37,040 bases of DNA, taken from positions 1-37,040 of the forward strand of contig CACZCD010000011.1 in assembly GCA_902779565.1 (NCBI GenBank). The letters run 5' to 3'. Of this stretch, positions 1,635-23,572 are shown piece after piece. Origin of the DNA: an uncultured bacterium (GTDB taxonomy: Bacteria > Verrucomicrobiota > Kiritimatiellia > RFP12 > UBA1067). How positions within the stretch are numbered: position 1 is the stretch's first letter; each line of letters opens with the position of its first letter. A program made the position numbers and the translations under genes. A model generated the notes under the pieces. That model made no database searches. It was not told the DNA's origin and worked only from the letters and a program-made list of their open reading frames with translations.

Positions 1635-3968
1635 ATGGATAGATCCGGCAAACATCTTGCGGCGGCGTTTGTTTCGGCGCTGGTGGCGGTATCATGCGGA
1701 ACCGCGCTTTCGGCGACGTTCACGGGCGGCAATGTGGAGATCGTGGTCGCTGCAGACGCCGCGCCCTCCGTGAAGTTCGCGGCTGAAGAGGCCAAGACGT
1801 TCCTTTCGCAGACGCTCGGCGCGGATGTTCCCGTGGTCGCCAGCCCTGGCGGCGGCAAGTCGCATCTTTTCCTCGGCGTAAACCAATGGTCAGCGGAGGC
1901 TGGCGTTTCCATCGACGGCCTCGCGTTCGACGGCTTTGTCACGTTTGCGAAGGGGCCTGACGTGTTCATCGCCGGCGCGGACGACCCCAAGGTCGATACC
2001 GTCGACCGCATCAAGAGGCCATCTTGGGGCTCGCACCGTTACGACCACAGCACGCTTAACGGTGTCTATGGTTTCCTTGAACGGTTCGCCGGCGTGAGGT
2101 TCTATTTTCCGGGAGAGCTCGGCACGTGCATCGTCAGGAAGAAGTCTCTGACCATACCGGATGGGCGGATCGTGACGGAGCCGGCCCTCTCCATCCGCCA
2201 ATGGTCGTTCTATTCCGACGGCGAATGGCCGGAGGGTGCGGACGCGAAGCGCGCGATCCATCCGTCGAAGGCGCTCAACATTCTCCGCAACAGGGCGTCG
2301 ACCAGAGACCTCGGATGCTGCCACGGTCTTAACGGGTTCTGCTATGTGGACCGTTTCGGCAAGACGCACCCGGAGTACTTCGCGCTGGATTCCAAGGGCA
2401 AAAGGATGATCGACGGCCAAGGTTGGGCGCGCGGTCATCTCTGTTTGAGTAGCGGCATACGCGACGAGATATTCAAGGACTGCCTTTCCTACCTGAAGGG
2501 CGAGGCCGCATCCGTGAGGGGCGTACCGAACAGGAGCCGGAGCAGATGGAATCCGGCTGAGTTCGCCTGGAACTACAACACGACACGCCATTACATCGAT
2601 CTGATGCCGCAGGACGGACATGCAGCCTGCCACTGCGAGAGATGCAAGGCGCAGATGCGCAAGGATGGCCGCAAGTATCCTGCCACAGAGCTCGTGTGGG
2701 GCCTTTTGGCGGAAGTCGCCGCCCGACTCAAGAAGGAAGGATTCGAGCCGACGCTCACGATGATGTCCTACGCCGACTACGCAGACCTCCCTGATTGTCC
2801 GCTGCCGCCGAACATCAAGGTGATGGTGGCGAAGACCGGCCCGTGGAAGAACACGATGCCGGGCAACATCGAGGCAGACGCGGCGTTCTACGATTCGTGG
2901 GCGCGCCGTCTGGGCGGCAAGACGTGGATATGGACGTATCCCAGACGGGGCGAGACTCTCAACTTCGACATTCCCGGCTGGGCGCCCCGGGCGTGGGGGC
3001 GGTACTACAAGGGTGTGGCACCGCATGTGTTCGGCATGTTCGCCGAATGTGAGACGGACCGCGGCATCGACAACCTCATGGGCTATTACCTGCTCTCAAA
3101 GATAGGCTGGGACCCGAACACGGACGTGGATGCCGTGATGGAAGAGTTCTACCAGCGTATGTTCGGCGCGGCCGCGGCGGAGATGAAAGCTGCCCTCGAT
3201 GCGGCCGAGGAGAAGTTCATGAACAACATCGTGGGCCGGTTCCGCATGACGGCGCTTGGCCCCGTTTCGGAGCGGCCGGGCGACCACTGCCTGTGGACGG
3301 AGGTGTATTCGGCGGCGGAGACCGCGCGCATCGCGCGGCATTACGAGGCGGCGGCGCGCCTTGTGCCGACAGGTTCGCTCGAAGCGAAGCGCATCGCGCT
3401 CTTCAGAAAATGGATGCTCGATCTGCCGCTCAAGCGCGGCGAGGAGTACCGCCGCGCGACCGATCCGAAGGCGGGCGTGGCGCATTTCAGGGCGCACGAA
3501 AAGGAGAACCTGCTCGGTGACGACTGGTGGGTCTCCGCCACCGAGGGCGCGACGCGCGACAAGGGCATGGTCCTTGTCGGGAGCGAATCCAAGAAGCTGA
3601 CGGTCACCGAGTCGCACAATTCGGCATGGGCGCTGCTCAACAGGATGAAGAAGGGACTTGCCGTCCAGCCGGGGGCTAAATACAGGCTTTCATGGTTCGT
3701 GAAGGTGGATCTCGAACCTCGGCAGATCGGCGGCGGCGCGGCGGTGGCGATCAACCTCGACGGCCCCGACAAGAAGTGGAAGAAGAGCTGGATCGTCCCG
3801 AAGCGGCTCGCCTATCACTCCGGCAAGGTGGACTGGATCCTCCAATCGACGGAGTTCACCGTCCCCGAGGATGCGCCGGAGGGCACCCGCTGTTCCGTGA
3901 TGCCGTTCGTCCGCTATTGCGTGGGGAACGCATGGTTCGATGGACTGCTTCTCGAGCGGATTCCGTGA
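1635..3968 (+). CDS. DUF4838-domain secreted protein
   Basis: This is a 777-residue protein. The N-terminus has a signal peptide (residues 1-26, cleavage likely near ALSA). An alpha-glucuronidase-N-like region follows at about 27-170, ending in GVYGFLERFAGVRFYFPGE, a hallmark of DUF4838 proteins. The DUF4838 core spans about 180-530 and contains a Cys cluster in DGHAACHCERCK near residues 328-338. About 620-777 looks like a beta-sandwich carbohydrate-binding-type domain. DUF4838 proteins are abundant in glycan-degrading PVC bacteria and Bacteroidota and are presumed glycoside-active, but I know of no defined reaction for this one. The ATG at 1635 is preceded by GGAG inside the end of the upstream gene, indicating translational coupling. 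It is more divergent than the two DUF4838 paralogues at the right end of the window. Family assignment is confident; substrate is unknown. Confidence 0.85.
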   Translation: MDRSGKHLAAAFVSALVAVSCGTALSATFTGGNVEIVVAADAAPSVKFAAEEAKTFLSQTLGADVPVVASPGGGKSHLFLGVNQWSAEAGVSIDGLAFDGFVTFAKGPDVFIAGADDPKVDTVDRIKRPSWGSHRYDHSTLNGVYGFLERFAGVRFYFPGELGTCIVRKKSLTIPDGRIVTEPALSIRQWSFYSDGEWPEGADAKRAIHPSKALNILRNRASTRDLGCCHGLNGFCYVDRFGKTHPEYFALDSKGKRMIDGQGWARGHLCLSSGIRDEIFKDCLSYLKGEAASVRGVPNRSRSRWNPAEFAWNYNTTRHYIDLMPQDGHAACHCERCKAQMRKDGRKYPATELVWGLLAEVAARLKKEGFEPTLTMMSYADYADLPDCPLPPNIKVMVAKTGPWKNTMPGNIEADAAFYDSWARRLGGKTWIWTYPRRGETLNFDIPGWAPRAWGRYYKGVAPHVFGMFAECETDRGIDNLMGYYLLSKIGWDPNTDVDAVMEEFYQRMFGAAAAEMKAALDAAEEKFMNNIVGRFRMTALGPVSERPGDHCLWTEVYSAAETARIARHYEAAARLVPTGSLEAKRIALFRKWMLDLPLKRGEEYRRATDPKAGVAHFRAHEKENLLGDDWWVSATEGATRDKGMVLVGSESKKLTVTESHNSAWALLNRMKKGLAVQPGAKYRLSWFVKVDLEPRQIGGGAAVAINLDGPDKKWKKSWIVPKRLAYHSGKVDWILQSTEFTVPEDAPEGTRCSVMPFVRYCVGNAWFDGLLLERIP

Positions 3969-4012: not shown

Positions 4013-5284
4013 TCAGCGTCCGACCTGGAAGCGCGGGTTAAGTTTGCCCCAGAGCACCTGGAGTTCGTAGAAGGGCATGCCGGAGGTCTTCTCGATTTCC
4101 TTGTCGGTGATTTCGTCGCTGCCCTGTGCGCCGAACAGCACCACCTCATCGCCCGGCTTCACGTCCGGGAAATCTGTGACGTCCACCATGAACGTGTTCA
4201 TGGTGATGACGCCCATGATCTTTGCGGAGTGTCCGTTCACGAGCACGCGCCCCTTGTTCCCGAACGCGCGCAGGTAGCCGTCAGAGTAACCCACCGGGAG
4301 GTTGGCAAGGCGCGAATCGCGCGTGAGGGTGCAGGTGCGGTCATAGCAGATCGTCGAGCCCTTCGGGTAGGCATTGACGGAGGCGACGCGCGTCTTGAAC
4401 GAGAACACGGTCTTGAACTGCGGGAAGCCGTCGTAGCATCCGCCCTGGTACAGCACGGAGCCCGGACGCACCATGTCAAGGCGGGCTTCGGGTACGTTGA
4501 GGGCGGCGAAGGAGTTCGCGGTGTGGAGCGTGAGCGAACGGCGGTCGAGCTTGGCGGCGCCGATGATGGCGGCGGTCTGTGCGTTGAAGCGCGCAAGCCC
4601 CGGACGCACATCGGTGCATTCCTCCATCGGGTAGTGCGTCATCATGCCGGTTATCTTCAGGTGAGGCAGGCGGATGATGGCGATGGCTTCGTCAAGACTG
4701 CCGGGGAGTGTCATGTCGAGGCCGTTACGGTCCATGCCGCCGGCGTTGAGGGCGAGGTGGAACTTCAGCAGCCGGCCGGCCTCGGCGGCAATGGCGTCGG
4801 CCGCGCGGGCATGCAAGAGCGCACCGATCAGCTCCTCGATGTCGTACGGGAGACCGGTGCGGATCTCACCCGCCGTTGCGGTGCGCACGCGCACGATCCG
4901 GCCCGTGTAGCCGCACGCACGTATCTTTGCCGCTTCCTCGTTGGAGGCAATGCCGATGGCCGGGATCTTCTCCGCGATGGCGACCGGCACCAGCATCTCG
5001 AGACCGCACCCATAGCCGTCGGCCTTCATGATGGCGCATATCCCGGTTTGGTCGCCGATGACCTTCTTGAACTCGCGTACGTTGTCTGCATAGGCGCCTG
5101 TGTCCACATCAAGCCAGGCGTGGCTAGACTCGCGCGCGGGTGCGGCGAAGAGCGAGGCGGCGGCGAAGACGACAAGGAGCGCCGCGGCGGCGAGGCGCCG
5201 ATACGGTGTGCCTGATCTGTCATTCTGCGCCGAAACGGAATGTGTCGGCGCATTGATAGCGTGCGGTTGGTTAGGGGCTGTCAT
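4013..5284 (-). CDS. bsr: Periplasmic broad-specificity amino-acid racemase (Bsr family, PLP-dependent)
   Basis: This is a fold-type III PLP racemase of 423 residues from the ATG at 5284. The N-terminus has a basic region and a hydrophobic stretch (about 29-48) ending FAAPA, so export to the periplasm is likely. The PLP lysine lies in CAIMKADGYG (K87). The catalytic tyrosine candidate is in STICYDRT (Y314). The blocks HTANSFAALNVPEARLDMVR, VASVNAYPKG, LPVGYSDGY and TMNTFMVDVTDFP match the broad-specificity racemases of Pseudomonas and Vibrio rather than cytosolic Alr. The Asn in TMNT, where Alr has Asp, is usual for this group. Bsr enzymes make non-canonical D-amino acids that modify peptidoglycan or are released. 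An in-frame ATG at 5347 lies upstream of a TATAAT box and is rejected as the start. No clear Shine-Dalgarno is seen. The gene converges with the DUF4838 gene and lies downstream of the response regulator. Confidence 0.9.
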   Translation of the reverse strand: MTAPNQPHAINAPTHSVSAQNDRSGTPYRRLAAAALLVVFAAASLFAAPARESSHAWLDVDTGAYADNVREFKKVIGDQTGICAIMKADGYGCGLEMLVPVAIAEKIPAIGIASNEEAAKIRACGYTGRIVRVRTATAGEIRTGLPYDIEELIGALLHARAADAIAAEAGRLLKFHLALNAGGMDRNGLDMTLPGSLDEAIAIIRLPHLKITGMMTHYPMEECTDVRPGLARFNAQTAAIIGAAKLDRRSLTLHTANSFAALNVPEARLDMVRPGSVLYQGGCYDGFPQFKTVFSFKTRVASVNAYPKGSTICYDRTCTLTRDSRLANLPVGYSDGYLRAFGNKGRVLVNGHSAKIMGVITMNTFMVDVTDFPDVKPGDEVVLFGAQGSDEITDKEIEKTSGMPFYELQVLWGKLNPRFQVGR

Positions 5285-5303
5285 GATCGTTTGATCGTTT
5301 GAT
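5285..5303. repeat. Short tandem repeat (GATCGTTT) in the racemase leader
   Basis: GATCGTTT occurs twice head to tail (5285-5292 and 5293-5300) followed by a third partial copy (GAT). On the coding strand it abuts the racemase ATG, occupying the place where a ribosome-binding site would be expected. It could affect translation initiation, but this is only a position-based guess. Confidence 0.6.
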
Positions 5304-5320
5304 TTTTTCGAATGGAGCGC

Positions 5321-5329
5321 ATTATACCA
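5321..5329 (-). promoter_or_regulatory. Extended -10 promoter of the racemase gene
   Basis: On the minus strand the sequence reads TGGTATAAT followed by GCGC. It is a consensus -10 (5326 to 5321) with the TGn extension. No good -35 is visible. The predicted transcription start is near 5314, giving a leader of about 30 nt before the ATG at 5284. The element lies inside the longer open frame, which argues for the 5284 start. Confidence 0.65.
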
Positions 5330-5369
5330 TATCGGCAGCCGAGTCATCCCATCCGGCAGATGTCAGCAG

Positions 5370-5996
5370 TTAGATGAGCTCGAGGGAAAGGGCCAGCGAC
5401 GCGGCCTCTGTGCGTGACGAGGCTCCGAGCCGCTCGAAGGCGATTGCGAGATGTGCCTTCACCCCGTGCCGCGTGATACCGATGCGTTCCGCTATCTCCT
5501 CGTTGTTGAACCCCTTGGAGACTAGCCGGAGGATCTCTTTCTGCCTTGCGGACAGCGTTGGCGTAAGCCTCTTCTCGGCTATGGTGTCAGCGATTTCCTG
5601 CGACAGGAACTTTTCGCCGCGCGCTGTCGTGCGGATGGCTTCAATCAGCGTTTCGCTGGAGCAGTCTTTCACGACTGCACCCAGAACGCCAGCGTCTATC
5701 GCGACCTTGATGTCTGCTGCCGTTGCGTACGAGGTGAGCAGCAGAATTTTCGCCGCAGGGTTGGTGCCGAGAATCGCCGCTGCGGCCGCTGCGCCATCCA
5801 TCAACGGCATCCGGAGGTCGAGAATGACAAGGTCTGGATTCAGTTCCCGTGCCAGACGGACGGCCTCCTGCCCATTTTCGGCCTCCGCGACGATCTTTAG
5901 CCCCTCTTCGCGGTCAATGAGACGCATGAGGCCCTCACGGACGATCTGATGGTCATCTGCGAAGAGTATTCTGGTGGTATTGCTGTTCGTCTTCAT
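5370..5996 (-). CDS. NarL/FixJ-type response regulator (REC + LuxR HTH)
   Basis: This is a 208-residue response regulator. The receiver domain (about 8-125) has the acidic pair DD at 14-15, the phosphoacceptor D60 in LVILDLRMP, a Thr/Ser in LLLTS, and the conserved Lys in VVKD. The C-terminal LuxR-type HTH (about 145-205) carries LSARQKEILRLVSKG and NNEEIAERIGITRHGVKAH. Regulators of this family bind inverted repeats as dimers after phosphorylation. The ATG at 5996 overlaps the kinase stop (ATGA at 5993-5996), so the pair is translationally coupled and co-transcribed from the promoter at 8050-8079. The perfect palindrome at 8077-8098 is the obvious candidate binding site. There is no other regulator in the window. 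The specific regulon is inferred from position only. Confidence 0.95.
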   Translation of the reverse strand: MKTNSNTTRILFADDHQIVREGLMRLIDREEGLKIVAEAENGQEAVRLARELNPDLVILDLRMPLMDGAAAAAAILGTNPAAKILLLTSYATAADIKVAIDAGVLGAVVKDCSSETLIEAIRTTARGEKFLSQEIADTIAEKRLTPTLSARQKEILRLVSKGFNNEEIAERIGITRHGVKAHLAIAFERLGASSRTEAASLALSLELI

Positions 5997-8029
5997 TTCG
6001 TTTCTTTCTCTTCCAGAACGACGCTTACTTTCGTTCCATTCCCGGGTTTGCTGGCGATCTTAACGGAGCCATTGAACGCCTTGGCTCTTTCGCGCATGCC
6101 GAGGATGCCGAAGTGTCCGTCTGCCGAGCCATGGCAGTTCGCGGGGTCGAAACCCTTGCCGTCGTCCGTTACCGTGAACACAAGCCGCCGTTCGCTGAGT
6201 TCGCCTGCGATCTCTATCGTCTCGGCGCGTCCGTGCCGGATGGCGTTGACCGTTGCCTCTCGGATTATGCACAGCGCGGCATGGCGAAACGCCTCGGACA
6301 TTTTGTCGGACGGGAAGTTGAGGTCGATCACGACGGCACGCCCCCGAAGGTGTGGGGCGATTGTTTCGCGTACTGCGTCCGCGAAGTTCTCCGCGTCAAG
6401 CGCATGGTTGCGCAGATCCCACAGGCATGCGCGCAGCTCCCGCCTGCACGATGCGAGGATGCGCTTGGCGGCATTCGTCTCGCCGGCGTCGAGCTGCATG
6501 GCCGCGCCAGTCAGTATCTGTGAAATGGAATCGTGGATGTCGGCCGCAAGACGCGTCCGCTCCGTGGTCTTGAGCTCGGCGAGCGCACTTGCCGAACGTT
6601 CGCGGAAAAGTTCGCGTCCTCGCTTTTCGGAGAGGTTCCTCAAAGATCTGTTCCAGATGAGAATCGCCGCGATTATGAAGACAAGGATCGCCACGACCCC
6701 CGTGAGGCGCGTGAGGTTCCACCAAGGCGGGCGTGCGAGTATCTCAACGTCGTTTGGACGGTCCACGACGAGCCGGATGCCGATCAACTGCGTCCCGGAA
6801 GAAAGCGAGGACCAGTTTTCCGTGGCGAGGACGCAGGTTCCCGCTACACGCACGCGACATCCCGGAACAATCTTCTCGCAAGATTGCGGCACGGAGGAGA
6901 AATCGATGTCGAGAAGCCGGCCGGCAATGCCGAGAGGAAGTGTTTTGCTCTCGCGCTGTCCTTCGCCGAAGTCGGCAACTGTGCCACACAGCTGTACGCG
7001 TTTCCCTTGAAGGGTGATTTTTGTCAGGGATTCAGCCGAAAGATGGTTCTTGAAGTCGCTTTCGGAAAATGGGATTGTCGGTGGCTCCGTGAACGGCGTA
7101 CATTCGCCAAGACGCGCAATTGCGCGGGAGAGGCGCAGCATGAAACCGTCCGTGGAGGGATAGCCGATGACCTCCACAGACTGTCCGCGCGGGATGCCGA
7201 CAGGACCGATGAACGAGACGATGGCGCACCGCTCGTCCTTCATCATCAGAAGCGCGTTGCGAGACTGCCAGATTGTAATGAGGCGGCCCTCGGCCTTGTG
7301 GCGCCCGAGGCGCGGCATCATCTCCGGTGAGAGTCGGCGCAGCGCGGCAACAGGAGGGGCTTTTTCAAAAGGATCGTCCGGAGGACGTGAGAGAATCTCG
7401 ATTTTATTCAGGTCCGCTACGAGAAAGCGTCGCTCGTCAATGAACTTGAAGGAGCAGTTGTGCGAGTCGGGGAATCCATCCAGTTTCACGGTGGATCCTA
7501 TGAGCGCCTCGAGTTCCGTGATCGTCGCGCCCCGCGAAGGTATGGGCGCATAGTACTGGCAGGCGTCGCTGATGATGGAGAGGTAGTTCCAGCAAGGGTT
7601 TGTTCCGCTTGGCTCCACATCGCGCAGCTCGCCGACAAGGTAGGCACGGTGGAAATCGTGGCGTCCGCTCATGATTTCGTATGCTGGTCCATCCACTGGC
7701 TTCGGCGATTCTCCGTGGCTAAGTATCTCCAGCGTTCTGAACACAGGAACGATGCTCCCCGCCGCGCTTGGCACGATGGCGCCGTCGAACCTTACGCGGT
7801 CGCCGGGGATGGGAGCGGGGCCCGGATCGATTGTCCCCATGATGTCAACGCCTATGCCGCCGTCTTCGACAAGGATGTGGCAGAACTTCTCCTGAAAGTT
7901 GAGGACATACGTCACCGTGCCCGTCACACAGAATTCTGCGCAGTGGTCGTATGTGTCCGCTTCGACGGCCGTGGCGAGGTCGCCGAGATGCACAAGGGAT
8001 GCGGCAAGAAGTGTTATGGCTGATAACAT
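5993..8029 (-). CDS. Membrane sensor histidine kinase (HisKA_3/HATPase_c) with OB-fold-like periplasmic repeats
   Basis: The protein has 678 residues from ATG 8029. A signal sequence (about 1-24) is followed by a periplasmic region of about 410 residues and a transmembrane helix (about 441-459, GVVAILVFIIAAILIW). A NarX/DesK-type kinase core follows. The H-box is RLAADIHDSISQ with His near residue 499, the N-box IIREATVNAIRHG, and the G-boxes DDGKGFD and GHFGILGMRERA. The periplasmic region appears to hold four diverged OB-fold-like units. Each runs 'xGxV-strand-strand-GxxVxxxG' and ends near phrases such as EILSHGE, EILSRPPDD and EILARPPWW. OB-fold sensors of this sort are known from PVC kinases, with ligand unknown. 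A TTG at 8041 could also start translation; ATG 8029 gives a better signal peptide. The gene forms an operon with the response regulator (4-bp overlap). Confidence 0.93.
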   Translation of the reverse strand: MLSAITLLAASLVHLGDLATAVEADTYDHCAEFCVTGTVTYVLNFQEKFCHILVEDGGIGVDIMGTIDPGPAPIPGDRVRFDGAIVPSAAGSIVPVFRTLEILSHGESPKPVDGPAYEIMSGRHDFHRAYLVGELRDVEPSGTNPCWNYLSIISDACQYYAPIPSRGATITELEALIGSTVKLDGFPDSHNCSFKFIDERRFLVADLNKIEILSRPPDDPFEKAPPVAALRRLSPEMMPRLGRHKAEGRLITIWQSRNALLMMKDERCAIVSFIGPVGIPRGQSVEVIGYPSTDGFMLRLSRAIARLGECTPFTEPPTIPFSESDFKNHLSAESLTKITLQGKRVQLCGTVADFGEGQRESKTLPLGIAGRLLDIDFSSVPQSCEKIVPGCRVRVAGTCVLATENWSSLSSGTQLIGIRLVVDRPNDVEILARPPWWNLTRLTGVVAILVFIIAAILIWNRSLRNLSEKRGRELFRERSASALAELKTTERTRLAADIHDSISQILTGAAMQLDAGETNAAKRILASCRRELRACLWDLRNHALDAENFADAVRETIAPHLRGRAVVIDLNFPSDKMSEAFRHAALCIIREATVNAIRHGRAETIEIAGELSERRLVFTVTDDGKGFDPANCHGSADGHFGILGMRERAKAFNGSVKIASKPGNGTKVSVVLEEKETK

Positions 8030-8049
8030 GGCTTGAATCAATGGTCAAG

Positions 8050-8079
8050 ATTATACTAAAAGACCTTTTCGTACGGCAA
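8050..8079 (-). promoter_or_regulatory. Promoter of the kinase-regulator operon
   Basis: On the minus strand, -35 TTGCCG (8079 to 8074) is followed after 18 bp by -10 TATAAT (8055 to 8050). The predicted start is near 8042, only about 13 nt before the ATG at 8029. The -35 overlaps the left arm of the palindrome at 8077-8098, so regulator binding would directly affect it. Confidence 0.7.
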
Positions 8080-8098
8080 GTAGCCAGTTGGCTACTTG
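8077..8098. promoter_or_regulatory. Perfect palindromic operator between divergent promoters
   Basis: The arms CAAGTAGCCA (8077-8086) and TGGCTACTTG (8089-8098) are exact reverse complements separated by GT. The inner part has the 7-2-7 inverted-repeat geometry used by NarL-type regulators. The dyad axis is at 8087.5. Both -35 boxes begin 8.5 bp from the axis and both -10 boxes 32.5 bp from it, so the divergent promoter is geometrically symmetric. The adjacent response regulator is the likeliest ligand. Confidence 0.75.
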
Positions 8099-8125
8099 TG
8101 CGCGGATATGTCAATGTGATATAAA
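8096..8125 (+). promoter_or_regulatory. Promoter of the beta-strand repeat protein operon
   Basis: -35 TTGTGC (8096-8101), an 18-bp spacer, and -10 TATAAA (8120-8125) put the start near 8132. A strong Shine-Dalgarno (AAAAAGGAG, 8141-8149) precedes the ATG at 8158. The -35 overlaps the right arm of the palindrome, mirroring the minus-strand promoter. Confidence 0.65.
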
Positions 8126-8157
8126 TCGCATCCGTGCGGCAAAAAGGAGTTCAGAAA

Positions 8158-11136
8158 ATGAAAAGACAACGTACAATAACAGTTGCAATGGTGTTTGCAC
8201 TTGTGGCGATGGTCGCTACCGATGCCATAGGAGGGACGATTACAACGACAACTGAGGACATGACAGCCCAAGGTGATTGGGAGGTGACGGTAGCCACCGG
8301 CGACTCAAATGTGGTTTCGGTTGCGCAGACCGGAGCAGGCAAGATCATCAAGAAGGGGGCAGGCACCCTCGTCCTCACGCAGGCGAGCACCTTCACGGGC
8401 GGTCTCACGATCTCCGCCGGCAAGGTGATGGCAGAGGCGGAGGGATGTCTCGGTAACGGCAAGGTGCTGTTCGATACGTCTTCAAGCCGCCAGCTGGTCT
8501 TTAACGCGCCAAACGCAACATTCCCCAACGACATCGAGCAGGCGGTCTATTACGGTGTAGCTTGGAACGTCAGTCATATCCAGTTTGCCGCCGCCACTAC
8601 GCTTTCTGGCAACATCACGTCTCCCGGCGGCGACCTGACGCTGGATCTTACCACGGCAGGCGCTCACGCGACATTTACCGGCTCAATCGATATGGGTAAT
8701 CATGCGTTGATGCTTGACCAGGTGGCGAATGTTTATCTGTCCTGCCCTGTTCATTGTTCAGAGCTCAGGGTTTCGCGCAACGGGTGGGGCAGAACGGGGA
8801 AGGTGTATTTCTCAAGCACGGCCAATTCCATACGTCGGATATGGATCAGAAGCGGCGATACCATTCCGACCGTTGTGGATGCCTTTGGCGGTGCGGAACT
8901 CTATCACTATTGGCGCTGGGGAGAAGAGAATCGTGCCCGTTTTGATCTCGGTGGCTTGAGTCAGACAATATCCGCAATTGATTCATACCTTCCAGAAGAT
9001 GGAGGCAATTCATTCGGACAAAACCCCAATGGCGGTACGATCTGGTCCACCTCCGCCGCAACATTGACGATCACCGGCGGTGTGACGTACGCAGGATCGC
9101 AGGTCGCCGTCTCGCGTTTCCGTATAAACAACGCAATTTCGCTTGTTCTGGATGCGCCCGGTTTCACGCAGGCGTTCATGGAGCGGGCGAACCTTACGTC
9201 CGGCTCGATAACAGTCTCGAACGGCACGTTCCGCGCGACGGATTCGGTGAACTTCAAGAACGTGCCAACGCTGACGGTTGCCGCAGGTGGAGCGCTTGAG
9301 ACGGCTGTCACGAATGGGACGGTGTTCTCGGGCTGCACGACTTGCACGGTCGATGGCAAGTTGACGGTCGCAACCGGTTCAAATCGTCCGTTTACGCAGG
9401 ATGCGGTTGCGTTCGCGATCGGTGCCAATGCGGAGGTGACGTTGCCGTCCGGCATGGTGATCTACGCCGCTTCGCTTTCGATCGGAGGCGTCGCCAAGGG
9501 GCCTGGCTCCTACACCGCCGACAACACGCCGCAGATCAAGAGCGGCGCAATCGTGATCTCCGGCGGCAGTGCTACTTGGACGGGTGGCGGCGGAGCCGAT
9601 ACAGGTTTTGAGACGCCTGACAACTGGGGCGGCACCTTGCCGGATGTCCTCTTCGGCTCGACGGCTGCGCAGTTTGCATCGGGCGGGGCGGAAGCTTCCA
9701 TCGGCAAGGCTTATTTCCTGAATTCCATCCTGCTTTCGGCAACGGACGGCTTCACTTTCCGGAAGACTTCCGATGCGGGTGCGCTGAAGGTCACGGAGGG
9801 TGTGACATCCGAAAAGGCGACAGCGGACGAGGATGACGTGCGCCAGTATGTATTCGAACCGACTGTAACCATCGATACGACGGTTGCGCGGACGATCACC
9901 GTCGCGACGAACGACACGGTCTCGTTCGCCGGTGGCCTGATTTCGCCGTCCACCACGATCAACCTTACGAAGGATGGTCCAGGCACCCTGGAGCTTGGCG
10001 ACGGTACGACGATTGGGCGCGGGGTGTACTTCAATGAAGGAACCGTCGTGCTGAAGGGGTTGATCGCTTCGCCCGGCCACGTCGATCAGGGAGGAGCCGG
10101 AGATCCCAGATGGGGCTCATCCCTCTACATGGATGGCGGCAAGAAAGTCTCGCTCGTGCTGGATGGTGCGACGATCGAGAAGCCCTTTGCTGGGTATCGC
10201 GATTCCCCTCTGCTCACGACGGTCAGCAATACGGTGAATACCTTCAAGGGGCAGGTGACGGTTGGAACGCCCGCGACGGAATTGAGGGTGCGAGGGACCA
10301 ATGGCCTTCTGCGGTTCGAGGGAGGCATCGCCTCGACGTGGTCAATGACGTTCGCCGGCGGCGGCAAGGTGGAGATCTGCGACCATTCGACGCGGACGAA
10401 CTCATGGAGAAGCTTTTCGCTCGGTGCCTTGACGCGCGTTTCCATCGAGGGGACGAGGAACAAGATTCAGGAGCTTCATTTTCCATGGAATACCGGATTC
10501 CTCGAGCTGAAGAAGGACCATGCGACCCTCGAGCCGATCGGTCTCCTTTATTTCGGGTATCAGTACGGAAATGCAGTCTATACGAACACATTGAGCTTGA
10601 ACATGACGACGCAGCGGGTGGTGAATATCTATTGCAAGGGGGCAAATGCCCATCCCGGCGTGATCATCGGCGAACCGGGTTCGCAGCTGGAGATCTCGGG
10701 TTACGGCACGAACACGGTGAACTGGGCGGGCGGCGTTTCGCTGCTGAAGACGGGCGAGGGGTTGCTGCGCATGTCAAAGAAGGCGTTCAGCTCCAGCGGA
10801 AATGTGGCGGTTGACAGCGGCGTGCTGGAGTTCGCCGATGGCGGAAGCTGGACGAACGGTCACAGCGTTTCCGTGAGCGGCACGGGAACGCTCATCGTCT
10901 CCCAGCCGGCCACCTTCCAGAAGGAAATCGAGCTTTCGCTTGACGACGAAGGCATAATCTCCATTGCCGATGACGTGTCGGTGAAGGTGGAGGCGCTGTA
11001 CGTCGGCGGCAACAGGATGCAGCCTGGCCGCTACACCTACGCCAATGCGCCGGAGCCGATCAAGAGCCATCTCGATCCGCTTACCGGCGGTGCTATCGTC
11101 GTGAAACGGGGCGGCTCGGCTTTCATCATCCGTTGA
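8158..11136 (+). CDS. Autotransporter-associated beta-strand repeat protein, no barrel
   Basis: A 992-residue secreted protein with a signal peptide (1-27, ending near DAIGG). It contains repeats of the autotransporter-associated beta-strand type (TIGR02601/PATR-like). Examples are IIKKGAGTLVLTQ...FTGGLTISAGKV at about 62, LTKDGPGTLELGDG at about 603, and LLKTGEGLLRMSKK at about 861. A linker of the form 'GxYTxxNxPxxIKSxxGAIVxxGG' recurs near 445 and at the C-terminus. No C-terminal outer-membrane beta-barrel follows; the protein ends GGSAFIIR. Start ATG 8158 is chosen over an upstream in-frame ATG/GTG because of the AAGGAG at the right spacing. It is the first gene of a plus-strand operon, 26 bp before the LamG/transglutaminase-like gene, and is divergently transcribed from the two-component system. 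A surface adhesin or glycan-binding scaffold role is inferred. Confidence 0.85.
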   Translation: MKRQRTITVAMVFALVAMVATDAIGGTITTTTEDMTAQGDWEVTVATGDSNVVSVAQTGAGKIIKKGAGTLVLTQASTFTGGLTISAGKVMAEAEGCLGNGKVLFDTSSSRQLVFNAPNATFPNDIEQAVYYGVAWNVSHIQFAAATTLSGNITSPGGDLTLDLTTAGAHATFTGSIDMGNHALMLDQVANVYLSCPVHCSELRVSRNGWGRTGKVYFSSTANSIRRIWIRSGDTIPTVVDAFGGAELYHYWRWGEENRARFDLGGLSQTISAIDSYLPEDGGNSFGQNPNGGTIWSTSAATLTITGGVTYAGSQVAVSRFRINNAISLVLDAPGFTQAFMERANLTSGSITVSNGTFRATDSVNFKNVPTLTVAAGGALETAVTNGTVFSGCTTCTVDGKLTVATGSNRPFTQDAVAFAIGANAEVTLPSGMVIYAASLSIGGVAKGPGSYTADNTPQIKSGAIVISGGSATWTGGGGADTGFETPDNWGGTLPDVLFGSTAAQFASGGAEASIGKAYFLNSILLSATDGFTFRKTSDAGALKVTEGVTSEKATADEDDVRQYVFEPTVTIDTTVARTITVATNDTVSFAGGLISPSTTINLTKDGPGTLELGDGTTIGRGVYFNEGTVVLKGLIASPGHVDQGGAGDPRWGSSLYMDGGKKVSLVLDGATIEKPFAGYRDSPLLTTVSNTVNTFKGQVTVGTPATELRVRGTNGLLRFEGGIASTWSMTFAGGGKVEICDHSTRTNSWRSFSLGALTRVSIEGTRNKIQELHFPWNTGFLELKKDHATLEPIGLLYFGYQYGNAVYTNTLSLNMTTQRVVNIYCKGANAHPGVIIGEPGSQLEISGYGTNTVNWAGGVSLLKTGEGLLRMSKKAFSSSGNVAVDSGVLEFADGGSWTNGHSVSVSGTGTLIVSQPATFQKEIELSLDDEGIISIADDVSVKVEALYVGGNRMQPGRYTYANAPEPIKSHLDPLTGGAIVVKRGGSAFIIR

Positions 11137-11162: not shown

Positions 11163-14100
11163 ATGTCCATTACTCCAATTCTTGCGGCGGCAGTCGCGTT
11201 TTCTCTCGAATGGAACCCCACGTACCGGACGGATGTTCCCTACGAAACGGAAATCCTCCCGGACCGGGTGGGCGCGAAATCCTTCCGCGTGTTTGCGGAC
11301 GGCAAGGAGCTCGACTCGTTGATGTACAGCGGCAAGGCCCCAGGCTCCGTCGGTCTCCGGTTCCGTGTGCCGAAGGGGACGAAGAGTCTCACCTGCCGGG
11401 GCGGCGATGGCGCTCCGGTGCTTGCCGACACGTCCCTTGTGGACAATCTCTTCGCCGGTGCGTTCGATGCGGCGAACCGTGGAAAGTGGCAGCTGCCGAA
11501 GGGCGTGAAGGTGGAGACGTTCGGCAAGGGCATCATGTTCCGTGCAGACGCGACGGCACCGGCAACCGCTTACGTATCTTATGACGTGGACATTCCGGAG
11601 ACGCTTGCGGGAATGCCGGTTTGGCAGGAGATCGACGTGGCGAGCCACTCGCATCTCGTGTGGGGAGGTCAGACGTGCATCGTGCAGCTTGATGCCAACG
11701 GTAAGGCGCTCCCCGAGACGTTGTGTGACCGTCGCTGGACCACCCACATGCGTCCGCCGGAGAAACCATGCCGTTACCGTGACGAGGGCCATGTGCATCC
11801 AAAGGCCCGCAAGCTACGGTTTGTCGCCGAGCTTCGGCGCGTGCTGTCCGAGTATGACGAATACGGTCTGCCGGTGAAGGACCGGTCGATACTTCTTCCG
11901 TCGCTTTCCCTCACGCATCTTGCGGTGCGCGTGGCGGAGCGGCTGCCGTTCCCGAAGTGGAAAGACGACTTTTTCGGTGTTGGCGTTTCTGGCAAGCCGG
12001 GCGACTGCTCGTTCAGGATGGGCGGCGCAAACGGGCGCTCGATGTTCTATCAGCTCCGCTCGCGTGCGGCATGGACGCAGCACCATCAGTTCCGGCGCGA
12101 AGAGGATCTGCTGTTCCCGTCCGGGGCGGGAACAGTGGAGGCGTGGCTCAAGCCCGACTGGAAGGCGTTCGTGGCGGCCAGAAAGGCCAACAAGGCGTCG
12201 AGGAAGGCCCCGGCCACGATCTTTGAGGCTTATCAGGCCTACATCGCGGCGCAGTGCAAGAAGGGGATGGGGCCGATGCTGAGGCTTGACTATAGGCCGA
12301 ACGATCCGTCGCTTTCACTGCTGATGCGCGACCATCGTGGCACGCTCTATACGAACACGTTCGCGGATGTATCGATTCCGGATGGCCGGTGGACGCATCT
12401 TGCCATGCAGTGGACACCGGGCGGTAGCGCGGAGGTGTTTGTGGACGGGAAGCGCGTCGCGGAGATGCCGATATCGGATTTTCAGGCCACGCCGATAGCT
12501 GACAAGTCCATTGGAAACCCGAACGACAGCTGGGCCATGGAATTCTACTTTGGCGCGGACAACATCTCGGCGCGGAATTCCGTGGGCATTCCGGAAGGCC
12601 CTGGCGGCGTATTCTTCGAGGGCGAGGGAGACTGCCTGCGCATCTCATCCGGCTGCCGGTACAAGGACGGCTTCGCGCCGGCGCGCACCTTCGCATGCGA
12701 CGGCGATACGCGGGCGCTGTTCACGTTCGACCGCTGGTTCGACGGCGTGTCAGGCGGTGGGTTCGGTTTCATTCCGGCGTGCGTGCGCGCGCTTGACGAC
12801 CGCGTGGACCATGAACTGCATCTCAAAGGTGGTGCGGCGGTGCAGTATTATCCAGCGTCGATCCTCCCCGAGAACGATCCAATGACCGTGCTCGACCATG
12901 ACAACTATCCCGTGCTCCCGTCCGACGCCGAGTACCGCGAGGCGCGCACGTCAAAGGTGCGTACGTTCTCGGTAAAGCCCGGCGATCGCGTACGCTTCAC
13001 GGCGGCCGATCGCGCCTACCCCGACTTCGTGGAGTACGAGAACGTCTCCGAGACCGAGCCTCTCAGGTATCCGATCCTTGTGCGCAAGGGCTGTCTCGAC
13101 CCGCGCAGCTTTGGGGATCTCTCGGATTCGCTTCTGGATGCGGGCAAGACGGACCGGGACCGCGTAAACCGTCTGTTCCAGTACGTGATGCACGCGAGCG
13201 ACTACTACGCCAATTATCAGGCGTGCTTCACCCCCGGATGCGACGAGCCGCACATGGCCTGCTACGAGGCGATGATCATGCTCAACAGCTATTGCGGCTT
13301 CGAGTGCGGTCCGCTCAACAACATGACTGCGAACATGTTTGCGACGGTCGCCAAGTGCCCGTCCGGCCAGACGGCCGGCTACGGCCATGAGTTCGAGCAG
13401 GTGTTCTACGACGGCAAGAACCACATCTACGACCTTTCGGCCAGGAGATTCTTCCCGGCGATGGATAACGAGACATCGGCGTATCTGAAGGAGGTAGGGG
13501 ACCAACCGATCATCAACAGGCGGGTTGGCGGAAACGTCGATCACTTCATACGGCGCGGCACGCGCGGAAGCTGGGTGCAGAACCCGTCGTATGGCGAGAA
13601 GTTCGGCGCGATACTGAATCCCGGCGAACGGCTGCGCGTGTGGTACGCCAACAATGCGCAGATGAACAACGTACACACCAAGTCGAAGTCCGGCGTGTAC
13701 GGCATGAAGAAGCTGGGGCCGGACACCTACGACTACGCGGATGTGCTCGGCTCAGACCAGACAAAGTGCTGGACGATGCGGCGCGACAGGATCTTCCCGC
13801 AATACTCGACTTCGGTCATCACATTTGATGGTGCCCCCAAAAGGAAGAACCCCGCCTTCGGGAACTTCACGGATCGGTCGTTCACCTACCATGTGAGATC
13901 ACCGTATCCGATCGTCTGGACCGAATATGCGGCGTATCTCAAAGGCGGCAAAACCGCACCCCTTTCCGTATCGACGGATTTCGGAAAGACGTACCATGCA
14001 CTTCCTTCGGGGAAAGACGGCAAAACGGCGCTCGAATATCGGCTGAAGGCGCGGCACGACTTCCTGATTCGCGTGGATGCCTCGATCAGTGCGGTGACGC

Positions 14101-15038
14101 GCTTCTTCGCCCGTACCGAGGGCGAGGTGAACCCGCGCACCTATCCGGGATGGGTGAAGGGCGGTGAGAACGAGTTTACGTTCAAGGCCGAGCCGGGCGG
14201 CAAGGCGACCGTGAGAGTTGGCTGGCGTGAGCCGGCCAAGGAGATTGTCGTATCGGGAGTGGCCAATTCAGGGGCAATCCCGGGTCTTGAACGCGCGCTT
14301 GTGGTGGTCGATCCCTCTGAACCGCTCAAGCTTGCCGTGACGGGCGCATCGGCATCGGCGACCGTAAGAACGTACGGTCGGCTTCGCGCCTCGATCTCGA
14401 ACGGACTGCTGACGCTCTCCTACGACGGCTCGAAGCCGCCTGCAATCAAGCATGGCATCGACAGACCGGTCGCGCAGCGTGAATTCCCCGCCTTCGCGTG
14501 CGTGGACATCGTCGATGGCGATGCGGTGAAGAGCGTCACCGCCGTCATCTCGCCGAACGCGCGGCTTCTCCTGCCGGACAGCCAGAAGATGGAATGGACG
14601 AAGGAGTTTCGCTTCAAGAAGATCCCCGCCGGCAATTACCTGGTGTTCGTGCTGGGTCGGTGCGCAAGCCGTCCGTCTGCCTGCGCCATCTACTTTGCGG
14701 ATCCCCTGGACGGGAAAAAGAGCTATTCGGTCTGGAGGCACATCAACGAGTTCATCGACTATCGCGGGATGGTGTTCTTCGGCCGGGAGGGTGGAAGGTC
14801 TCGCTGGAAATGGGATACCGTCGTTCGCTCCGACCTTCAGCACTCGTCGGGCGGGCACATTCTGGGCGTAGTGCAATTCCCCGAGACTGATTCGCTGAAG
14901 TTCGTGCAGAGGTGGCTCAGCAAGGAGACTCTTGAGTTCGGTGCCGCGCTCATCGTTCCGGAGGGTGACGGCGAGAGCCTGCTTGAGTTCCGGAAGATGC
15001 TGTTCGGCCTGAACTGCGACCCGTTCCATGTGAAGTGA
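11163..15038 (+). CDS. Large secreted LamG protein with putative transglutaminase-like domain
   Basis: This is a 1291-residue protein with a short, weakly charged export signal (1-14). About 320-500 is a LamG/concanavalin-like fold: AGTVEAWLKPDW, then DGRWTHLAMQWTPGGSAEVFVDGKRV. About 655-780 looks like a transglutaminase/protease-like core. It has KTDRDRVNRLFQYVMHAS, Cys at 711 and 715 in YCGFECGPLNNMT, His742 in GYGHEFEQVFYDG and Asp757 in HIYDLSARRF. This is the order and spacing of a Cys-His-Asp triad. The remaining C-terminal ~500 residues look like beta-sandwich modules (for example FTFKAEPGGKATVRVGW). The reaction is unknown; it could be a cysteine hydrolase, a cross-linking enzyme or an inactive scaffold. 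The ATG at 11163 follows AGAGGGG. It is probably co-transcribed with the upstream repeat protein. LamG is confident; the transglutaminase-like call is my motif reading. Confidence 0.8.
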   Translation: MSITPILAAAVAFSLEWNPTYRTDVPYETEILPDRVGAKSFRVFADGKELDSLMYSGKAPGSVGLRFRVPKGTKSLTCRGGDGAPVLADTSLVDNLFAGAFDAANRGKWQLPKGVKVETFGKGIMFRADATAPATAYVSYDVDIPETLAGMPVWQEIDVASHSHLVWGGQTCIVQLDANGKALPETLCDRRWTTHMRPPEKPCRYRDEGHVHPKARKLRFVAELRRVLSEYDEYGLPVKDRSILLPSLSLTHLAVRVAERLPFPKWKDDFFGVGVSGKPGDCSFRMGGANGRSMFYQLRSRAAWTQHHQFRREEDLLFPSGAGTVEAWLKPDWKAFVAARKANKASRKAPATIFEAYQAYIAAQCKKGMGPMLRLDYRPNDPSLSLLMRDHRGTLYTNTFADVSIPDGRWTHLAMQWTPGGSAEVFVDGKRVAEMPISDFQATPIADKSIGNPNDSWAMEFYFGADNISARNSVGIPEGPGGVFFEGEGDCLRISSGCRYKDGFAPARTFACDGDTRALFTFDRWFDGVSGGGFGFIPACVRALDDRVDHELHLKGGAAVQYYPASILPENDPMTVLDHDNYPVLPSDAEYREARTSKVRTFSVKPGDRVRFTAADRAYPDFVEYENVSETEPLRYPILVRKGCLDPRSFGDLSDSLLDAGKTDRDRVNRLFQYVMHASDYYANYQACFTPGCDEPHMACYEAMIMLNSYCGFECGPLNNMTANMFATVAKCPSGQTAGYGHEFEQVFYDGKNHIYDLSARRFFPAMDNETSAYLKEVGDQPIINRRVGGNVDHFIRRGTRGSWVQNPSYGEKFGAILNPGERLRVWYANNAQMNNVHTKSKSGVYGMKKLGPDTYDYADVLGSDQTKCWTMRRDRIFPQYSTSVITFDGAPKRKNPAFGNFTDRSFTYHVRSPYPIVWTEYAAYLKGGKTAPLSVSTDFGKTYHALPSGKDGKTALEYRLKARHDFLIRVDASISAVTRFFARTEGEVNPRTYPGWVKGGENEFTFKAEPGGKATVRVGWREPAKEIVVSGVANSGAIPGLERALVVVDPSEPLKLAVTGASASATVRTYGRLRASISNGLLTLSYDGSKPPAIKHGIDRPVAQREFPAFACVDIVDGDAVKSVTAVISPNARLLLPDSQKMEWTKEFRFKKIPAGNYLVFVLGRCASRPSACAIYFADPLDGKKSYSVWRHINEFIDYRGMVFFGREGGRSRWKWDTVVRSDLQHSSGGHILGVVQFPETDSLKFVQRWLSKETLEFGAALIVPEGDGESLLEFRKMLFGLNCDPFHVK

Positions 15039-15040
15039 AT

Positions 15041-15096
15041 GTTAGTGGTTAGTGGCTAGTGGTTAGTGGCTAGTGGTTAGTGGGTAGTTGTTAGTT
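15041..15096. repeat. Heptanucleotide tandem repeat, unit GTTAGTG (8 copies)
   Basis: Eight consecutive 7-mers starting at 15041 read GTTAGTG, GTTAGTG, GCTAGTG, GTTAGTG, GCTAGTG, GTTAGTG, GGTAGTT, GTTAGTT. Changes are limited to a few positions. The tract begins 2 bp after the upstream stop and ends 6 bp before a TATAAT box, so it occupies the -35 region of the next gene. Slippage could alter promoter strength. Confidence 0.9.
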
Positions 15097-15102
15097 AAGA
15101 GT

Positions 15103-15108
15103 TATAAT
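15103..15108 (+). promoter_or_regulatory. -10 box of the beta-helix gene
   Basis: TATAAT lies 17 nt before the ATG at 15126, with TTAGGAG as the Shine-Dalgarno (15114-15120). The -35 region falls within the GTTAGTG repeats and has no good hexamer. The transcript leader would be about 11 nt. Confidence 0.55.
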
Positions 15109-15125
15109 AAGAGTTAGGAGTCGTG

Positions 15126-17294
15126 ATGAAGAAAATGGTTGCGTTGGTTTTTGCCGTTGCCGGCATGCTTGCCGCTCCTGCGGCATGGGAGAATCCGCCG
15201 CCCGGGTTCAAGCTGAAGATGGAGCCTGCTCCGATGGCGAAGCGGCTCAAGCAGATCAATCCAGCAGCCCAAGGCGAGTTCAGGCTTGTGCCCACCTACG
15301 TCTCTTGCTCGATGTGCTGGGGTGTCGCCGCGCCGGTGGAAGGGCTTTCCCTCGAATTCCGGAAGACGGGAAGCGGAAAATGGCGGAAGGGCGAGACGCC
15401 GATGTTCTTCGACGACGCCGCCAATTACCGCGCCTCAATCCTGTACCTGGACGAGGACACCGCATACGAGGCGCGTCTCGTGGCGAACGGGAAGACGCTT
15501 GCGAAAGGGACGTTTCGCACATGGAAGTCCGTCGTGCCGGTCGCGAAGACCATCGTGATCGACCCCGCGAAGGCGACCTACCCCCTCGTGATCTCGGATA
15601 AGGGCCGTCCGGACGGATGGATCCGCTACACCGCGCCGAAGGGAAAGGTTGTCGGCGGTCCTTGCGTTACGAACACGAGCGTCATCTCAGTGAAGGGTGC
15701 GGAGTATGTGCTGCTTGACGACATGACGATCGAGGGTGGCGCCGGCGATACGGAAAGCTGCGTGTTCATCGGGGAGTCCCGCGGCGTGCGGGTTCGCAAC
15801 TGCGACATCTACGGCTTCGGGCAGGTCGGTTCCCAGGTGTTCTCCGCCAAGGGCTACGGGCGCTTCTTCCTGAACAGCCCGATTTCGGATCCGGAACCCG
15901 GCCGCTGCATCGACTGGCACGCTGGCGTGATGATCTATCCGGGATCTTCCGAGATCACCGTGGAGCGCTGCTACATCCATGATCCGCGCGGTCGTTCGAT
16001 CGCGTGGTACTACTCCCACCCGGCTGGCAAGCAGGGAATCTTCGTGTTCCGCGCCGCTGGCTCCGTGGTCCTGCGCTGGAACGACATCGTCGCCTCCGAC
16101 CTCCATCGCTGGAACGACGCGATCGAGGGTTGCGACAACTTCGCCGCCCGCGGCGGATTCAACCGCGACAGCGACATCTACGGCAACTTCTGCATCTACG
16201 CGAACGACGACTGCATCGAGCTTGATGGCGGCCAGCAGAACGTGCGCTGCTTCCAGAACCGCTTCGAGGCCGGCTATTCGGACGTGTCGATCCAGGGCTG
16301 CATGGTCTCGCCGGTCTATCTTTTCGACAACCTGCTTGCGCCTTGCTGCGACGAGTTCGGCGTGGCGAACCCCACGATCAAGACATACGGATTCGACATG
16401 TTCTGGTACGCGCCGTATGCGATGATAAAGGGGAACTGCTTAGGGGAGGCGTCGTACAAGCCGGTGCTCGGACCGACGTCACGATGGGACTGGAGAGACG
16501 ATAACATTTTCGTGACCAACGACGTGCCGACCTCGTGGGCGTGCGGATATCCTGTCCGCGCCCTGCCGTTCATCCTTGATCGCGGCATCATCAAGGACGT
16601 CAAGGTTTCGGGGCTCATCGCTACGCCGCAGACCGTCCGCTTCTCCGCACGGTCGAAGGAACCGGTGCGCTACCGCGTAAGGAAGAACTTCGACGCGGAC
16701 TGGTTCTCCGTGTCGCCATCCGAGGGTACACTCAAGAAGGGCGACAACGCCTTCACCGTCACCTTCTTCCCGGAGCGCATGAAGGACAGGCGGCAATGGC
16801 GCTCTGCGTTTCTGCTCCGGACAGAGGAAGGACTTTCGCGCTGCATGTCCGTCTATGCCGAGCGGACGGATTTCGAGCAGCCGGCGCAGCCTATACCCGC
16901 CGCCGCGCGTACAATCTATGTCCCGCTCAAGGATCCGATACGTTTCCCGTCCTCCAAGATCGGCAAGGAAGGGGTCGAGGTTGCATTCGATGTCTCGGAG
17001 GAGGCCGAATACTGGCTGTTCCTTCGCGGCAAGGCCGATTGGGGGGCATCCGTCGCGGAGGTTTCGGTGGACGGTTCGGAATTCAAGTCTGTTTACTTCA
17101 AGTTATGGAAGACTCACGCCGCATGGAACATGATACGACCCGGTACCTCAAGCTACAACTCTGCGGGCGGCTTTGTCCCGTTCAGGTTCAAGCCCGGCCG
17201 GCACACGCTCCGGCTGCGTCCATTGAGGGGCCGGCCGCTCACGGTCCTCGACGTGGCGGTCTCGGATCAGCCGCTTGCGTTTGAGCCGCGCTAA
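15126..17294 (+). CDS. Secreted right-handed parallel beta-helix protein
   Basis: A 722-residue protein with a signal peptide (about 1-20, ending LAAPAAW). About 40-140 resembles a fibronectin/purple-phosphatase-like strand domain (EDTAYEARLVANGKTLAKGTFRTW). About 180-430 is a pectate-lyase-like right-handed beta-helix with stacked turns such as VLLDDMTIEGG, VRVRNCDIYGFG, ITVERCYIHD, VVLRWNDIVASD and VRCFQNRFEAGYSDV. About 500-600 is a beta domain (VSPSEGTLKKGDNAFTVTF). A C-terminal CBM-like domain follows (VEVAFDVSEEAEYWLFLRGKAD). It is probably polysaccharide-binding or a lyase/hydrolase, but no catalytic set is identifiable. ATG 15126 is preferred over GTG 15123 because of the TTAGGAG spacing. 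It may be separately expressed, downstream of the heptamer tract. Confidence 0.82.
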   Translation: MKKMVALVFAVAGMLAAPAAWENPPPGFKLKMEPAPMAKRLKQINPAAQGEFRLVPTYVSCSMCWGVAAPVEGLSLEFRKTGSGKWRKGETPMFFDDAANYRASILYLDEDTAYEARLVANGKTLAKGTFRTWKSVVPVAKTIVIDPAKATYPLVISDKGRPDGWIRYTAPKGKVVGGPCVTNTSVISVKGAEYVLLDDMTIEGGAGDTESCVFIGESRGVRVRNCDIYGFGQVGSQVFSAKGYGRFFLNSPISDPEPGRCIDWHAGVMIYPGSSEITVERCYIHDPRGRSIAWYYSHPAGKQGIFVFRAAGSVVLRWNDIVASDLHRWNDAIEGCDNFAARGGFNRDSDIYGNFCIYANDDCIELDGGQQNVRCFQNRFEAGYSDVSIQGCMVSPVYLFDNLLAPCCDEFGVANPTIKTYGFDMFWYAPYAMIKGNCLGEASYKPVLGPTSRWDWRDDNIFVTNDVPTSWACGYPVRALPFILDRGIIKDVKVSGLIATPQTVRFSARSKEPVRYRVRKNFDADWFSVSPSEGTLKKGDNAFTVTFFPERMKDRRQWRSAFLLRTEEGLSRCMSVYAERTDFEQPAQPIPAAARTIYVPLKDPIRFPSSKIGKEGVEVAFDVSEEAEYWLFLRGKADWGASVAEVSVDGSEFKSVYFKLWKTHAAWNMIRPGTSSYNSAGGFVPFRFKPGRHTLRLRPLRGRPLTVLDVAVSDQPLAFEPR

Positions 17295-17312
17295 GGTCGT
17301 GTAACCGCATGG

Positions 17313-17331
17313 GGACAGACCCTTTGTCCCG
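17313..17331. other. Small hairpin (GGGACA/TGTCCC), REP-like fragment
   Basis: GGGACA (17313-17318) and TGTCCC (17326-17331) form a 6-bp stem with a 7-nt loop just after the beta-helix gene. The core TGGGGACAGACCC resembles a motif seen in REP-type intergenic palindromes linked to Y1 transposases in many bacteria. It has no U-tract, so it is a poor intrinsic terminator. The rest of 17295-17401 shows nothing else apart from the promoter at its end. Confidence 0.4.
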
Positions 17332-17385
17332 CCAACTTGTCCGCCACCGCGCCCGACATGGTGAGTCGCATGCTGGAAGCAGAAG

Positions 17386-17394
17386 TGCTATAAT
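17386..17394 (+). promoter_or_regulatory. Extended -10 promoter; probable leaderless start of the alpha-galactosidase gene
   Basis: TGCTATAAT (17386-17394) is a TGn-extended consensus -10. Only 7 bp separate it from the ATG at 17402, so transcription should start at or next to the A of the start codon. No Shine-Dalgarno is present in those 7 bp. This implies a leaderless mRNA. Confidence 0.65.
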
Positions 17395-17401
17395 TCACGC
17401 C

Positions 17402-19336: not shown

Positions 19337-19351
19337 AAAAGGAGATGTCTT

Positions 19352-21532: not shown

Positions 21533-21575
21533 CGACCCAGCCAACCGCGGGACGCGCACGGGTGACGTGCATTGG

Positions 21576-21605
21576 TTGCTTTTGCCGTGTGCTTTATAGT
21601 ATAAT
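21576..21605 (+). promoter_or_regulatory. Promoter of the sialidase-symporter operon
   Basis: -35 TTGCTT (21576-21581), an 18-bp spacer, and -10 TATAAT (21600-21605), followed by GCGC. The predicted start is near 21612. AAGGAGG (21623-21629) precedes ATG 21633. This is one of the best-formed promoters in the window. Confidence 0.7.
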
Positions 21606-21632
21606 GCGCAACCATTCCAACAAGGAGGATTC

Positions 21633-23555: not shown

Positions 23556-23572
23556 TCAGGATACCTAAGCAA

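Follow-up and report, generated by a model that had tools for sequence, protein, structure and literature searches.

A conserved palindrome between divergent promoters as the probable private operator of a kinase-regulator pair in an uncultured Kiritimatiellia bacterium

Within a 37,040-nucleotide stretch of DNA from an uncultured Kiritimatiellia bacterium (hereafter the window), a histidine kinase-response regulator operon and a divergently transcribed operon headed by a secreted repeat protein are separated by a perfect inverted repeat, CAAGTAGCCA-GT-TGGCTACTTG (8077-8098, no strand assigned), with the conserved core TAGCCA-NN-TGGCTA. Comparison of related loci makes it likely (we put the probability at roughly 0.8) that this palindrome is the operator of the neighbouring regulator, which would be an autoregulating activator of both operons acting from a private, class II-type site. 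The left arm (8077-8086) and the right arm (8089-8098) are exact complements flanking the GT, as the original prediction had stated, and the axis lies at 8087.5. The inner part of the repeat, GTAGCCA-GT-TGGCTAC, has a 7-2-7 layout that is also seen in orthologs and paralogs. The heptamer consensus of Escherichia coli NarL is TACYYMT, and GTAGCCA does not fit it; the site thus shares the layout but is not a NarL site proper.

The kinase gene (5993-8041, minus strand) encodes HisKA_3 and HATPase_c domains together with a predicted tandem OB-fold extracytoplasmic sensor, and an ATG at 8029 is its more likely start. In the structure model of the kinase (pLDDT 83.7), tandem OB-like barrels lie outside the membrane and the core resembles that of DesK; the predicted tandem OB-fold would be an unusual type of periplasmic sensor; the best Foldseek matches are to tandem OB proteins (p204 HIN, RPA) and to DesK cores. 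The regulator gene (5370-5996, minus strand), whose product is the proposed ligand of the palindrome and has the recognition helix TRHGVKAHLAIAF, belongs to the NarL/FixJ type, with Pfam matches to the receiver domain (PF00072, 3.9e-26) and the GerE/LuxR HTH (PF00196, 3e-14), and a match at 2.3e-28 to the NarL structure 1a04. Downstream of it is a gene for an alanine-racemase-like protein (4013-5347, minus strand), inside which there is a second perfect 10-2-10 palindrome (4184-4205) that is probably a chance occurrence.

The first gene of the divergent operon encodes a secreted PATR-repeat protein (8158-11136, plus strand) and is preceded by AAGGAG at 8144-8149. The co-directional genes that follow (11163-26191, plus strand) encode LamG, beta-helix, melibiase-like, FAD oxidoreductase/Golvesin, DUF3472 plus BNR sialidase-like, and NanM epimerase-SSF symporter proteins. 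The last two adjoin each other at 21633-26191 (plus strand), the NanM epimerase being fused to the SSF symporter; because of this combination, use of sialic acid is likely, and the gene content suggests that the divergent operon resembles a sialoglycan utilisation set. The window also encodes two DUF4838 proteins, at 1635-3968 and 32516-35062.

The bare inverted repeat is not beyond chance, as chance alone would give 1.0 repeats per window with perfect arms of at least 10 bp and gaps of 0-8 (0.125 with a gap of 2); its position and its conservation are beyond chance. A fortuitous repeat, or an RNA element such as a terminator or attenuator, would accord with an expectation of about one repeat of this size per window, but the palindrome lies upstream of both predicted transcription starts and so would be transcribed from neither, and the conservation among orthologs and the positioning across the family described below are far beyond chance; we regard this explanation as very unlikely indeed. 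The palindrome occurs only once in the 4.09-Mb genome. Allowing up to two mismatches, a search for further genomic copies of the 16-bp core gave four forward matches, against 14 for the reversed control, and operator matching revealed no regulon above control within the genome of the window.

Three orthologous kinase-regulator loci are available for comparison, with kinases 60-73% and regulators 73-82% identical to those of the window; the relative Verrucomicrobia bacterium UBA3624 carries an ortholog (L169). TAGCCA-NN-TGGCTA is retained 31-32 bp from the kinase TATAAT in all three (L075, L076, and L077), while the flanks and the sequence at the "-35" position differ. Absence of the palindrome from orthologous loci had been named at the outset as the result that would speak against the original prediction, and it is instead present in three of three; judged from this comparison, the inverted repeat is genuine and conserved. 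A copy of the operator likewise lies at 31-32 bp on the side of each ortholog's divergent gene, even where two copies of the site, or an inserted gene, come between the promoters. For example, in L075 each -10 has an operator copy of its own at a distance of 32 bp, two in all, and in L076 there is a TATCAT 31 bp from the site on its divergent side. In the third genome, G090, an ATPase gene lies between the kinase and the divergent gene, and a stretch of about 32 bp containing the site is duplicated, with one copy for each promoter; a further copy, the third, lies in front of a related secreted gene on a different contig, and both of the secreted-gene promoters have a TAGAAT 31 bp from the site. 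The inserted gene is of the ATPase_2 type (loci L077, L163, and L156). No tblastn matches were found between the divergent genes of the orthologs and that of the window, those of L075 and G090 being cut by contig ends. Since the orthologs share the site while their divergent genes are not detectably homologous, the module and its operator have been kept and the cargo exchanged. The exact operator pattern had no match among 59 relatives, which is explained by the location of the true orthologs in genomes outside that sample; they were found by protein search.

The kinase-regulator pair belongs to an expanded paralogous family that is represented by several loci each in many genomes and is distributed over the taxonomic family of the source bacterium and a second family of the same order (f4). 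We profiled spacing in 122 non-redundant loci by scoring 7-2-7 palindromy at every offset from the predicted -10, with no operator preselected, with a background of arms paired across different loci, and counting a locus as palindromic when at least six of seven pairs matched. Anchored on the -10 of the secreted gene, 21 of 76 loci are palindromic at 32 bp, eight at 31 bp, and four at 33 bp (33/76 in total), compared with 0.29 loci per offset elsewhere, and the peak at 32 bp has a z of 10.0. Anchored on the kinase -10, 17 of 102 loci are palindromic at 31-33 bp and 15 at 42-43 bp, with more at 52-54 bp, against 0.26 elsewhere. These kinase-side distances advance in steps of about 10.5 bp, a periodicity that leaves the site on the same helical face. 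The exact symmetry seen in the window is not the rule in the family: the distance is constant at 31-33 bp for the secreted gene but takes values of 31-33, 42-43, or 52-54 bp for the kinase. A control set of unrelated promoters also gave matches at 32 and 53 bp; few remained under a stricter control, L143 among them, and these were mostly copies of the locus's own operator, located ahead of either the divergent gene or another target gene (L250, L100, and L115). At L100:4418 and L115:1174, a second secreted gene has its -10 at a distance of 53 bp from a copy of the cognate GTATAC palindrome, and operators may thus mark further target genes. An operator could be called confidently in 54 of the 122 loci; these 54 were chosen partly by geometry, whereas the spacing profiles were not.

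The promoters themselves (the transcription starts and -10 boxes being predictions throughout) conform less well to what had been proposed. In the window, the kinase-regulator promoter has a -10 TATAAT (8050-8055, minus strand) and the divergent promoter an extended -10, TGA-TATAAA (8117-8125, plus strand; TATAAA at 8120-8125), each 32 bp from the axis, and the distances originally given from the axis, 8.5 bp to the -35 and 32.5 bp to the -10, are correct. The putative -35 sequences, each 18 bp from its -10, are TTGCCG for the kinase promoter (8074-8079, minus strand) and a weak TTGTGC for the divergent promoter (8096-8101, plus strand). The claim that these are two -35 boxes fares poorly: the kinase-side sequence is not conserved, being CTCGGA and GTCCGC in orthologs, and is probably non-functional as a -35, and no -35 is seen in 45 kinase promoters of the family, 36 of which have the TGn of an extended -10, as do 23 of 35 secreted-gene promoters. 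The only visible trace of a family -35 is a TT with a 17-bp spacer on the secreted-gene side (19/35), which recurs near the place of the weak sequence of the window. The divergent promoters of L075, L076, and L163 have TGG followed by TAGAAT or TATCAT at 31-32 bp. The kinase promoters of the window and of the orthologs L076 and L077 are without the TG of an extended -10. Kinase promoters with an extended -10 and no -35 point to activator-dependent promoters rather than to two complete sigma-70 promoters.

With the -10 at -12 to -7, a distance of 32 bp places the axis at -44.5. The layout is of the class II type, in that the site abuts the -35 region, the distance is constant, and the peaks (32, 42-43, and 52 bp from the -10) keep helical phase. 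A site that adjoins the -35 region of both promoters, or overlaps it, could also serve a repressor, with the regulator blocking RNA polymerase at both until a signal arrives, and NarL does repress some promoters, such as frdA (PMC4549865). A repressor would require no helical phase, however, whereas the fixed -44.5 position and the steps of about 10.5 bp are typical of activation, and promoters on the kinase side have no -35 that would let them work unaided; we therefore consider repression unlikely. The phasing fits an activator, as does the presence in kinase promoters of an extended -10 but no -35, and we infer that the kinase would sense an extracytoplasmic signal and phosphorylate the regulator, a dimer of which would bind the 7-2-7 site with its axis at about -44.5 of both promoters. 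The bound dimer would aid RNA polymerase at the kinase-regulator promoter, giving positive feedback, and at the divergent operon with its secreted repeat protein and apparent sialoglycan-utilisation set. Such co-activation is likelier than the evenly acting two-way switch first envisaged. What stands of that interpretation is a NarL-type 7-2-7 site common to the divergent promoters and tied by comparative evidence to the neighbouring regulator; support is lacking for full -35 boxes and for exact symmetry as a rule.

Operators differ between the loci of a single genome, those of G005, for example, being CCCCTAATATTAGGGG, CTAACCAAACGGTTAG, CCCCTCACATGAGGGG, and CTACCCTAAAGGACAG; operators of other pairs include CCCCTAATATTAGGGG and CTGTCCTAAAGGACAG. 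This privacy is not absolute, since in four of 52 within-genome operator pairs the half-sites are a single base apart. Operator similarity correlates with similarity of the recognition helix (Mantel r = 0.41), and the association persists when the receiver and the HTH scaffold are controlled for (partial r = 0.26, p = 0.0005). The strongest associations with operator positions 3-5 are in the columns of residues A181 and H177 of the window regulator. An acidic residue in the A181 column accompanies CC at operator positions 3-4 (19/22 versus 1/26; Fisher 2.4e-9, a value that overstates independence, as there are about four switches on the tree and too few independent pairs for a test), and with non-acidic residues these positions are mostly TA or TG. 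By our own reading of the alignment this column corresponds to V189 of NarL, a residue that contacts a base there. The rule is a strong lead, although not proof. These data also bear on whether the palindrome might belong to some other, perhaps global, regulator and lie beside this pair by accident. A site of that kind would not be expected as a single genomic copy, to vary between loci of one genome, to follow the recognition helix of the adjacent regulator, or to be conserved only with the orthologous pair, and we find this account improbable.

A NarL-type activator at -44.5 is a known principle, an example being the activation of E. coli ogt by NarL from a 7-2-7 site there (PMC7419079). The ogt and yeaR sites resemble that of the window in their inverted heptamers with a 2-bp centre, NarL-type HTH, and location near -44.5 (PMC7419079), but NarL is global with one consensus, whereas here the sequence is pair-specific, the target set local, and the promoter divergent, with no link to nitrate. 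The best structural match for the kinase core and the regulator is with the HisKA_3-NarL pairs DesK-DesR and VraS-VraR, from which the window pair differs in its predicted tandem OB-fold sensor and in its cargo. The hybrid two-component systems (HTCS) and SusR-like regulators of Bacteroides polysaccharide utilisation loci (PULs) are likewise expanded paralogs, each beside its own glycan genes and with its own predicted motif (PMC3878776). HTCS are single hybrid proteins with an AraC-type HTH and direct-repeat motifs, and the present pair is not one of them, having a separate kinase and NarL-type regulator, a compact palindrome, and a divergent promoter of fixed spacing. In another PVC bacterium, Pontiella agarivorans, genes for PF07730 kinases and for regulators lie near glycoside hydrolase and sulfatase genes, and we found no operator or promoter analysis in the parts of that study consulted (PMC10880615). 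Nor did we find in open-access papers a description of such operators in PVC bacteria, or of a radiation of divergent modules that have private operators and exchange their secreted cargo.

Across the family, nearly all of the divergent genes have a signal-peptide-like start, which was also a criterion in choosing divergent genes for the spacing profiles, and Pfam matches of the cargo include PATR, beta-helix, LamG, SASA, GH35, GH88, GH31, chondroitinase B, and FGE-sulfatase. We lean towards the view that in this uncultured lineage a kinase-regulator-operator module has given rise to many copies in each genome, every one of which has a co-evolving palindrome of its own and secreted cargo that can be exchanged. 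This would be a PUL-like form of control that differs from the Bacteroides HTCS, and a natural data set for the code relating NarL/LuxR helices to DNA. With tens of paralogs whose cognate site identifies itself by a fixed promoter position, the sequence alone suffices to match each regulator with its site; such data bear on how paralogous two-component systems are insulated at the level of DNA and on the way in which NarL/LuxR recognition helices specify bases, for both of which natural data sets are few. For uncultured PVC bacteria the module would provide a scheme for the control of glycan and surface-protein genes, in which the operator predicts members of the regulon, as in G090.
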